A stretch of DNA of 64,000 nucleotides from NCBI GenBank assembly GCA_021810565.1, contig JAJZIM010000005.1, positions 1 to 64,000 on the forward strand, read 5' to 3'. The notes beneath the pieces were generated by a model that worked only from the letters and a program-made list of their open reading frames with translations, was not told where the DNA came from and searched no databases. Below are positions 863 through 3,060 of the stretch, in pieces (positions within the stretch are counted from its first letter, which is position 1; every line of letters begins with the position of its first letter). This DNA is from Bacillota bacterium. GTDB lineage: Bacteria; Bacillota; Sulfobacillia; JAJZIM01. A program made the position numbers and the translations under genes.

Positions 863-890
863 AAAAAAAGGCCTCCCGCGCGGGAGGCCT
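863..890 (-). terminator. Rho-independent terminator after the peptide cassette
   Basis: On the minus strand a perfect hairpin of AGGCCTCCCG and its complement (869-890) is followed by seven T residues (863-869). It lies 18 nt beyond the stop of the 20-aa peptide gene and would end the radical-SAM transcript. Confidence 0.85.
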
Positions 891-907: not shown

Positions 908-970
908 TCAGCAGGAGGACTTGCACTTGCAGGTGCTGGAGGAAGCCTTGGCGACCTTGACGATCTTCAC
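908..970 (-). CDS. 20-residue Cys-rich peptide, candidate RiPP precursor
   Basis: This short gene starts at GTG 970 behind GGAGGTGAG, a strong ribosome site, 39 nt after the radical SAM gene, and stops just before a terminator. The product has a basic N-terminus (MKIVKVAKA) and the C-terminal sequence SSSTCKCKSSC, with three cysteines in a C-x-C-x4-C pattern. A tiny Cys/Ser/Thr-rich peptide directly behind a SPASM-type radical SAM protein is the standard layout of peptide-modification (RiPP) loci, so I infer it is the substrate. The peptide is too short for homology to prove this. It could instead be an unmodified metal-binding peptide. Confidence 0.6.
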   Translation of the reverse strand: MKIVKVAKASSSTCKCKSSC

Positions 971-1009
971 CGCTTTCTCACCTCCACGCGCGGATTTGGA
1001 CCAGGCCGG

Positions 1010-2170
1010 TCAGGCCGGCCGGAGTCCCGACGACCAGGGGTCCCAGCCGCAGCGGGCGCAGGCCACGAGATCCGGCCCCCGGCCATCCCCCGCCGCCTCG
1101 GCCCGGAAGCGGCAGCCGCCCCGGCACTCGGCCAGGTGCGGGCAGCCGCAGGACAGATCGGAAAGGTGCATTCGGGGCAGCGCCTCCCACGCGCGACGCA
1201 GGTCGCCCCCCCAGGGCACCCCGCGGCCGCGGTAGAAGCCGCACTTGCAAAGCTCCCCCTCCGGGGTGACGGCCCCCAGGTGGGTGCCGCACACCCCGTC
1301 GCCGCCGGAGTCGTGCAGGCCGCCCTCGCGGCTGTAGGCCAAAAGGGGGGCCAGCTCCTGCGGGGAGAGGAGGAGAGCCTCCTTCCGGGCGCGGCCGGCC
1401 GCGGCGGGGGCGTCCACGTTCCATTCCGCCACCCCCAGATGGTCCAGGAGCCGGGCCAGTTCCGGGAAGTCGGTTCGGTTGCCCCGGTGGGCCATGGTGG
1501 CCACGGACACGGTGATGCCCGCGGCGCCCAGATGCTCCAGGGCGGCCACGGCGGCTCGAAAGGAGCCAGTGCCGCGCAGGGCGTCATGGGAGGGCTCCAG
1601 ACCGTCCAGGCTAACCTGCACCTCCTGCACCGCCAGGTCCCGCGCCGCACCGGGGTCGATCAAGACGCCGTTGGTGAGCAGCACGCTGCGGAAGGACCAG
1701 CGGGGCAAAAGCTCGTTTAGCCGCCAGAAGTCCGGGTGAAGCAGCGGCTCGCCGCCCGAGAGCAAAAGGCGCAGGCCCCCCAGGCGGTCGAATTGGTCCA
1801 ACAGGCGCACGGCCTCCTCGAAGGGCAGGTCCGCCCCGCGCGGCTCGCCCAGGTAGCAGTGGGCGCAGCGCAGGTTGCACCGGTCGGTGAGCAGAAGTTC
1901 CAGGTACCGCAGGGATGGCCGGGGAGCCGGCTCGGGCAGGGAACGGGGCGAGGCCGGCCCCTCCTCCAATAGCCCCTCCGCGCGGCAAAACTCCCAAAAC
2001 TCCGGATCGGGGGAGGGTACCTCCTCGCCCCGCGCCAACCGGAGCAGGTAGGCTGCGGCGGCGTCGTCCAGCTCATACAATTCGTCAGTCTCCCGGTGGT
2101 ACAGGTGCGGCCGCTCCAAGAGGCGCAGCGAGCAGCCTGGGGTCAGGCGCACCCTACTCAGCGACGGCAC
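1010..2170 (-). CDS. Radical SAM/SPASM peptide-modifying enzyme candidate
   Basis: The protein has 386 residues. The N-terminal 70 residues look like a PqqD-type recognition domain (Y-H-R-E-T-D-E-L-Y-E-L-D, then A-Y-L-L-R-L). The radical SAM cluster motif C-N-L-R-C-A-H-C is at Cys98, Cys102 and Cys105, and GGEP follows. The C-terminal SPASM region has the expected cysteine spacing: C-x13-C, C-x-C-x5-C-x3-C and a final C-x2-C. SPASM enzymes of this architecture install thioether or other links in short peptides. It starts at GTG 2170, overlapping the upstream small gene by 17 nt, and is followed by the 20-residue Cys peptide. Substrate and chemistry are inferred from context only. Confidence 0.85.
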   Translation of the reverse strand: MPSLSRVRLTPGCSLRLLERPHLYHRETDELYELDDAAAAYLLRLARGEEVPSPDPEFWEFCRAEGLLEEGPASPRSLPEPAPRPSLRYLELLLTDRCNLRCAHCYLGEPRGADLPFEEAVRLLDQFDRLGGLRLLLSGGEPLLHPDFWRLNELLPRWSFRSVLLTNGVLIDPGAARDLAVQEVQVSLDGLEPSHDALRGTGSFRAAVAALEHLGAAGITVSVATMAHRGNRTDFPELARLLDHLGVAEWNVDAPAAAGRARKEALLLSPQELAPLLAYSREGGLHDSGGDGVCGTHLGAVTPEGELCKCGFYRGRGVPWGGDLRRAWEALPRMHLSDLSCGCPHLAECRGGCRFRAEAAGDGRGPDLVACARCGWDPWSSGLRPA

Positions 2171-2384
2171 GGACCACGTCCTCCGGGGTGATGACGCCCT
2201 TCAAGAGCAGGTGCTTCAGGATCCGAAAGGCGCCGCACTCCAATTCCTCGTCTTCTCCCTCCTTGAAGAAGTCGCAGTCCCGGCAAAAAAGGTCCACCAA
2301 TCCCTCCTCCGAGGTGCAGTAGGCCAGATTGGCGGAGCAGAAGCGGTCGGCGTGGGCGCGGATGTGGGGGAAGCCGGTTGACAC
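2154..2384 (-). CDS. Small Cys-rich protein of the radical-SAM cassette
   Basis: The protein has 76 residues and starts at GTG 2384 behind AAGGAGGGG. It contains five cysteines (16, 23, 34, 37, 50), including F-C-R-D-C-D-F-F, and ends in an acidic/helical segment (ECGAFRILKHLLLKG). It is the first gene after the promoter at 2418-2446 and overlaps the radical SAM gene, so the two are probably translationally coupled. I do not recognise the family. A partner, chaperone or metal-binding role for the peptide pathway is possible, but nothing in the sequence settles it. Confidence 0.75.
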   Translation of the reverse strand: MSTGFPHIRAHADRFCSANLAYCTSEEGLVDLFCRDCDFFKEGEDEELECGAFRILKHLLLKGVITPEDVVRAVAE

Positions 2385-2417: not shown

Positions 2418-2446
2418 ATTTTACCATCAGATTGCCCTCCGGTCAA
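2418..2446 (-). promoter_or_regulatory. Sigma-A-type promoter for the peptide cassette
   Basis: On the minus strand TTGACC (2441-2446) and TAAAAT (2418-2423) are separated by 17 nt. The -35 box overlaps the last codons of merB, so the small-protein/radical SAM/peptide genes can be expressed apart from the mercury genes. Just downstream GTTAGCGTCAACGC shows partial dyad symmetry and could be an operator. Confidence 0.75.
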
Positions 2447-3060
2447 GCCTGGGCCGGCCCGAAAAGGGACCAAACGCTGCGGCCCCAGCGGGCGGCCTGC
2501 GACAAGGTCAGGTAGGCGGGCGCGTCAGCGGCGGGGTCGTCGGGCCCGACCGAGCCCACGAAGACGATGCCCTCTCAGGTGCCCCCGCACATGGTGCGGT
2601 GCGCGTGGGGCGGCAGGACGCGCACGAAGACTTCCCGGGAGGCCGCCTGGGGCGCTCCCCGGCGAAACTGCAGGCGCAAATCCTCGCCGCCGTCCGCCAA
2701 GCGGCTCTCCACCAGCGCGTCGGCTCCCAGGGCGGCCGGGATGGCCGCGGCGTCCAGGGCGCACCAGGTCCAAAGCCGCCTACCGCCCAGGGTCAGCCGG
2801 TGCGCCGCCGGCTCCACGGAAAGCCCGGCGGCGCCGGTGATCCTGGTCCCATCCCAGGTGAGCCAGCCGGCCTCGCCCAGGGCGGCTGCCGCCCGGGCGG
2901 TCTTGCCCGGCGTCCTGCGGGCGGCCGCCGCCACCTGCTCCAGGGAGACCGCCGCTCCCCGGGCCAGCAGCCGGAAGGCCGCCCCCAACACCCGCCGCTC
3001 CGTGGGCGGGTGGGCGGCGATCTCCTCGATCCATACGCGGCGCATCGTCTCCTCAGTCAT
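2443..3060 (-). CDS. merB: Alkylmercury lyase with in-frame TGA, candidate selenoprotein
   Basis: MerB cleaves the carbon-mercury bond of organomercurials, giving Hg(II) for MerA. The frame from ATG 3060 shows the family signature: L-S-V-E-P-A-A-H-R-L-T-L-G-G followed by L-W-T-W-C-A-L-D, giving Cys100 and Asp103 (Cys96/Asp99 in the E. coli enzyme). An in-frame TGA (2575-2577) is codon 162. The next residues E-G-I-V-F-V-G-S align with the segment after catalytic Cys159 of classical MerB. The distance from Cys100 to codon 162 (62) nearly equals 96 to 159 (63). Read through, the product has 205 residues, the usual MerB length; ending at TGA leaves 161. A SECIS-like hairpin follows. Alternatives are a nonsense pseudogene, or Cys158 serving as nucleophile. 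Confidence 0.7.
2542..2557 (-). promoter_or_regulatory. SECIS-like hairpin after the merB TGA
   Basis: In the mRNA, GGGCUC (2557-2552) pairs with GGGCCC (2547-2542) through six pairs including one G-U, closing a GGUC tetraloop whose first base is 24 nt after the UGA. Bacterial selenocysteine insertion elements are hairpins at about this distance with a G in the first loop bases; the E. coli fdhF element also presents GGUC in its loop. A lower stem GUC/GAC (2565-2563 with 2538-2536) can extend it. GC-rich DNA makes such hairpins by chance, so this is supportive only. Confidence 0.5.

Follow-up and report, generated by a model that had tools for sequence, protein, structure and literature searches.

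The minus strand of the window (the whole stretch of DNA that was analyzed, 64,000 nucleotides) carries a promoter, a gene for a 76-aa protein with five cysteines, a gene for a SPASM radical SAM enzyme, a gene for a 20-aa peptide and a terminator. With moderate confidence, we read the three genes as a radical SAM RiPP cassette whose product is an intracellular soft-metal ligand, the His-type of the peptide serving copper handling and the Lys-type a related metal or redox function. The encoded peptide is probably of a new type that serves in metal handling, and not one dedicated to mercury. All elements described by the first-pass annotation were located, namely:

2418–2446, minus strand: sigma-70-like promoter (TTGACC, 17 nt, TAAAAT; TG before the second hexamer; 10/12 matches; a consensus match only)
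2154–2384, minus strand: gene of the 76-aa partner with five Cys, GTG start behind AGGAGG
1010–2170, minus strand: radical SAM/SPASM peptide maturase, 386 aa (Pfam PF04055, E = 2.4e-20)
1931–2170, minus strand: predicted N-terminal PqqD/RRE-like domain of the maturase, aa 1–80 (SuiB fold match and weak PqqD Pfam match)
1856–1879, minus strand: radical SAM cluster motif CxxxCxxC (C98/C102/C105), invariant in 28 homologues
1058–1291, minus strand: SPASM seven-Cys region C294–C371, seven Cys invariant in 28 homologues
979–985, minus strand: Shine-Dalgarno sequence GGAGGTG of the peptide gene
908–970, minus strand: gene of the 20-aa precursor peptide, GTG start, (V/M)KIVKVAKASSSTCKCKSSC, ending in STCKCKSSC
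911–931, minus strand: codons of the core CKCKSSC
869–890, minus strand: intrinsic terminator behind the peptide gene (9-bp stem with 7 GC pairs, T run; 94% conserved with a second copy)

Two promoter-like sites were found in 4.5 kb, with 0.2 expected. There is a 17-nt overlap between the radical SAM ORF and the 76-aa gene.

When 84,980 genomes were scanned, 29 true homologues of the enzyme were recovered, with an identity of 37–52%. Their hosts belong to Nitrospirota, Desulfobacterota, Actinobacteriota (Solincola), Bacillota and archaea, including Methanoperedens and Hydrothermarchaeota-type genomes. Cassettes of enzyme, 76-aa protein and Cys peptide, the search for which had been suggested at the outset, occur across several bacterial and archaeal phyla. 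The motif C[KR]CxxxC followed by a stop codon was located next to 24 of the 29 homologues and in each case on the strand of the enzyme, while shuffles of the same 295 kb would be expected to give 0.3 matches, which argues that the tiny ORF is real and not a chance reading frame. Homologues without a nearby Cys peptide had been named beforehand as evidence against a RiPP locus; such a peptide is linked in 24 cases and is not linked in five, one of which is cut by a contig end and one of which (the relative G001) has MKITKVVKKASAQCKCKSSC on a different contig from the enzyme and partner genes. Among 30 newly drawn Desulfobacterota loci, the peptide was linked to the enzyme in 25.

The 20-residue product of the peptide gene in the window is V/MKIVKVAKASSSTCKCKSSC. 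Beside most homologous enzymes, the peptide follows the pattern M-x-I-x-K-[VI]-x-[KR]-x(5-7)-C-K-C-x-x-S-C. In a set of 50 distinct peptides, the three cysteines and the lysine of the core C-K-C-x-x-S-C are present in 50/50 and the serine in 47/50; the search expression demanded the three Cys and part of the leader, while the core K and S were not demanded. Comparison of 55 distinct DNA copies of the peptide gene showed 538, 514 and 1401 differences at the first, second and third codon positions, respectively, i.e., a strong excess at the third position, and a Shine-Dalgarno-like site was found upstream of 52 of these copies. The precursor is therefore under selection, with a conserved leader and core, as is required of a RiPP. 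No Pfam or NCBIfam family was matched by the peptide or by the 76-aa protein. A second copy of the peptide gene was found in the genome of the window at G000:C111:1444–1506 (locus L081), encoding the identical 20-residue product and followed by the terminator (122 bp, 94% identical). It is located behind a Crp/Fnr-like regulator gene, with no enzyme gene beside it. Since the peptide gene can be unlinked or duplicated, its product acts in trans.

Co-occurrence of the enzyme and the peptide was estimated independently of linkage. A single draw of 297 Desulfobacterota genomes contained 29 with the enzyme (enzyme profile, E ≤ 1e-70). The DNA pattern of the peptide, which was searched for separately, was found in all 29 of these and in 1 of the 268 others, that single match being out of frame (Fisher P of about 2e-39), and the reversed control pattern gave no match in this draw. 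Thus, the precursor co-occurs with the maturase, as RiPP biosynthesis demands. In Nitrospirota, the enzyme was present in 64 of 188 genomes, and the strict peptide pattern matched 47 of these 64 vs. 2 of the 124 others. Re-examination of 16 discordant Nitrospirota genomes with a relaxed search revealed the standard peptide written with other codons in six; in the other ten, mainly of one subgroup, no peptide was found within about 3 kb. The Nitrospirota loci L219–L222, L227 and L230–L234, which mostly score low against the enzyme profile, contain the enzyme with no CxC peptide within about 3 kb. Many Nitrospirota genomes carry two peptides, a Lys-type (CKCKxSC) next to the enzyme gene and, at another place, a solo CKC[H/Y]xSC, and the genomes with two precursors have one enzyme match each. 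In the phylum of the window, the enzyme is rare (3 of 398 genomes), and the two further carriers each possess all three genes, with CKCHASC in the peptide.

The enzyme was identified as a SPASM peptide maturase by its CxxxCxxC motif, its seven-Cys motif and its best structural matches, which are SPASM enzymes. The pattern C294-x10-G-x4-C310...C341xC343-x5-C349-x3-C353...C371 and the cluster motif are invariant in an alignment of 28 sequences, and the SPASM region presumably holds two auxiliary Fe-S clusters, as we expect of SPASM enzymes. Modeling with AlphaFold2 led to a model with a pLDDT of 90.6. Residues 6–376 of this model were aligned with SuiB carrying bound SuiA (5v1t; Z = 26.6, 353 residues aligned), and 6efn gave Z = 26.4. 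Because the alignment spans residues 6–376, it places the N-terminal domain over the domain of SuiB that binds the peptide, and the N-terminal domain is predicted to be an RRE/PqqD-like peptide-binding domain. The PqqD-like N-terminus proposed earlier is thus borne out by fold prediction over the whole length, while the Pfam PqqD matches are weak (2 of 17 homologue N-termini, best E = 0.007). Sequence searches of the PDB with the N-terminus and with the 76-aa partner found nothing. Together with the linkage and the perfect co-occurrence in Desulfobacterota described above, the predicted domain strongly supports the claim that the locus is a RiPP locus with a Cys peptide as the substrate.

The 76-aa protein has the conserved core CxxCxF(Y/F)xxGExxELEC, in which C34, C37, F39 and C50 are invariant in 17 homologues, and some homologues show a weak SHOCT-like C-terminal helix. 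Its gene lies upstream of the enzyme gene in most lineages and is a separate gene in the window. At six Desulfobacterota loci (L022, L027, L028, L030, L043 and L045), a longer form is fused to the N-terminus of the enzyme, which allows us to assume that the partner works with the enzyme. A model of the fusion of partner and enzyme reached a pLDDT of 88, the partner domain being helical and of lower confidence.

The evidence for a metal ligand comes from the sister peptides. Solo CKC[H/Y]xSC genes of Nitrospirota lie within 4 kb of a P1B-ATPase gene on the same strand at 11 of 12 loci, the exception being on a short contig, and all four of the Nitrospirota P1B-ATPases that were scanned pass the cut-off of the copper-translocating family TIGR01511. 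In a Bacillota-type genome (G183), a CKCHASC cassette itself begins 28 bp after a CopA gene on the same strand. A copper ATPase was found near 12 of 18 loci of the H/Y-type vs. 1 of 56 loci of other types, the latter on the opposite strand (P = 1e-8, a value that overstates independence, since the loci are mostly from one phylum, many are related, and solo loci were sampled for being solo). The heavy-metal ATPases near L029 (calcium type) and L024 (cadmium/zinc type) were not counted as copper ATPases. Met-rich secreted proteins and a YHS-thioredoxin-reductase-like protein are likewise encoded in the copper operons with an H/Y peptide. In archaea, H-type copies were found in 12 of 23 genomes of one group, a few with Tyr or Cys replacing His; among nine stretches with solo archaeal H-type copies, CopA was near in one, 5.7 kb away. 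Its shared operon with a copper-exporting ATPase marks the His-type as a probable component of copper homeostasis, and a copper function for it is well supported. The Lys-type, to which the peptide of the window belongs, has no consistent metal neighbor and does not share an operon with a copper ATPase. The suggestion of a metal-binding peptide thus gained indirect support from the sister type. The tie of the His-type to copper export makes a soft-metal ligand the likeliest product of the cassette.

The surroundings of the radical SAM-linked cassettes are very different and often consist of housekeeping genes; they have no recurrent exporter, protease or immunity gene among their neighbors. 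At nine Desulfobacterota loci (L121, L123, L125, L129, L130, L132, L133, L134 and L137), the radical SAM gene is directly followed by a gene for a small cupin protein. An ATP-grasp-like protein of about 310 aa, possibly a further tailoring step, is encoded beside enzyme and peptide in one Desulfobacterota clade (L017, L019, L020, L115 and L116). The cupin, the ATP-grasp protein and IscS/IscU, the last found at few loci, were rejected as general parts of the cassette, being lineage-limited neighbors. The dsrA profile was over its cut-off in 15 of 30 cassette genomes, and a link to sulfate reduction is not required, dsrA being absent from the genome of the window and from Solincola.

The mature peptide could instead be a redox cofactor or electron carrier, minimal rubredoxin-like or mycofactocin-like, with the His-type as a side branch recruited to copper operons. 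The missing exporter and immunity genes agree with this, as does the lack of a universal neighbor, which is expected of a stand-alone module. At 12 loci, a gene for an FAD pyridine-nucleotide oxidoreductase lies no more than 4 kb from the peptide, vs. 1 match in 208 kb of background, although 5 of the 12 fall in the copper operons themselves, related loci were counted separately, and the background sample is small and unlike the foreground. At some loci (L027, L028, L124, L139 and L177), the FAD oxidoreductase is directly adjacent, and the Lys-type loci include five with rubrerythrin-like, two with flavodiiron and two with nitroreductase genes. These scattered redox neighbors of the Lys-type are suggestive only, and we consider a redox carrier rather unlikely.

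The location of the cassette had raised the idea of a mercury-related metallopeptide; in its strict form, this would be a mercury-specific one that is part of the neighboring mer operon. In the window, the cassette directly follows merA...merB in the same direction, and a thiol-rich peptide would bind Hg(II); however, the cassette has its own promoter and the association does not recur. MerB was found in 5 of 30 cassette genomes, and MerA exceeded the curated cut-off in 0 of 29 cassette-bearing vs. 12 of 268 other Desulfobacterota genomes (P = 0.6, consistent with no association). In G001, amidohydrolase, ribokinase and nucleoside-hydrolase genes are directly and divergently beside the cassette, and their counterparts are located at 7.4–10.3 kb in the window. 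Because these neighbors directly adjoin the cassette in G001, the mer block, which separates them from it in the window, fills a gap in the window lineage only. Membership in the mer operon was therefore rejected as a general function on the basis of 30 genomes for MerB, 297 for MerA and the G001 synteny; a mercury role beyond the neighborhood of the window is not supported, and we regard a peptide specific to mercury as very unlikely. The merB gene itself (2443–3057, minus strand) contains an in-frame TGA near 2577–2575, after MCGGT, and the frame runs on with EGIVFVGSVGPDD... to a stop at 2443. The gene is either interrupted or has a recoding TGA; a query with the merB read-through found no plasmid relative.

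An antimicrobial or signaling peptide, as many radical SAM RiPPs are generally known to be, would be expected to come with the recurrent exporter, protease or immunity gene that is missing here, and between Bacillota and archaea the core hardly varies, unlike that of most bacteriocins, so that this role seems extremely improbable. It is hardly credible, too, that the enzyme acts on another substrate such as the 76-aa protein, which is Cys-rich and in some lineages fused to the enzyme, and that the peptide is a regulator or leader peptide: peptide and enzyme co-occur in 29/29 genomes even if unlinked, the peptide gene has its own Shine-Dalgarno sequence, is often downstream of the enzyme and has a terminator behind it, and a domain that has become fused to the enzyme is better explained as its partner than as its substrate.

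For the favored soft-metal RiPP, the following mechanism is proposed. The basic leader M-x-I-x-K-V-x-K of the 20-aa precursor would be bound by the RRE-like N-terminal domain of the enzyme, and the C-terminal core C-K-C-x-x-S-C would then be modified by the radical SAM/SPASM enzyme; we infer this covalent modification, its site and its type of bond, for which the thioether proposed at the outset is one possibility. The 76-aa Cys protein may assist the enzyme as an Fe-S, zinc or chaperone partner. The mature peptide would be a small intracellular soft-metal ligand, and metal binding is presumed for both types. The His-type CKCHxSC would act with CopA-type exporters in handling copper; the Lys-type of the window may bind a related metal or act as a metal/thiol redox peptide.

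If this is true, a radical-SAM route to a 20-residue metallopeptide would be a new element of metal homeostasis in anaerobes. Between Bacillota and archaea, the sequence of the peptide hardly changes, and gene callers largely miss it. With a substrate of about 20 aa, one enzyme and one small partner, the cassette would also offer a minimal, easily reconstituted SPASM system for identifying the bond in CKCxxSC. To our knowledge, the known copper RiPPs are products of MNIO or methanobactin enzymes.

A literature search, which covered open-licence papers and is therefore weak evidence, found no description of a CKCxxSC peptide. Bufferins are reported to chelate excess copper (PMC12452194). The bufferins and related thiooxazole metallophores, i.e., the copper RiPPs of MNIO (DUF692) enzymes (PMC12452194, PMC12538549, PMC13097082), resemble the cassette in being Cys-containing ribosomal peptides with a tie to copper handling, whereas their maturase is an MNIO and the cassette has a radical SAM/SPASM enzyme, a precursor of about 20 aa with a short basic leader, and a His-type encoded with CopA. 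Among the cassette genes examined, the only catalytic one is the radical SAM gene, and membership in the bufferin/MNIO metallophores was rejected. SuiB/SuiA (streptide) and SkfB share the RRE-like N-terminus, the radical SAM barrel and the SPASM fold with the cassette maturase, but the identity is 15–22% and the precursor family is different; since the cassette peptide contains no Trp, it cannot form the Lys-Trp bond. Mycofactocin (MftA–MftC) is similar in its short precursor, SPASM enzyme, wide distribution and lack of an exporter, and a creatininase gene lies beside one archaeal cassette (L042). However, the cassette enzyme scores 87.8 bits on the MftC model vs. a cut-off of 265, and the MftA precursor is known to end in Val-Tyr, while the core here is CKCxxSC. 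Among the NCBIfam radical SAM maturase families scored (sactipeptide, mycofactocin, SynChlorMet, GeoRSP, WgkB, PapB and others), the best match was SynChlorMet ScmE, likewise a SPASM radical SAM enzyme, with 96.8 bits vs. a cut-off of 400. No equivalog cut-off was reached by the maturase, and the archaeal and fused homologues are likewise under every NCBIfam cut-off listed. Despite its bufferin-like context and SuiB-type fold, the cassette lies outside every named family tested. We tentatively suggest, as an idea at somewhat less than even strength, that it represents an unnamed class of radical-SAM-made soft-metal RiPPs with the core CKCxxSC in bacteria and archaea. This class would be an intracellular counterpart of the bufferins and methanobactins, in which one maturase serves two paralogous precursors, a Lys-type and a His-type, and the His-type supplies CopA exporters with copper or buffers it for them.
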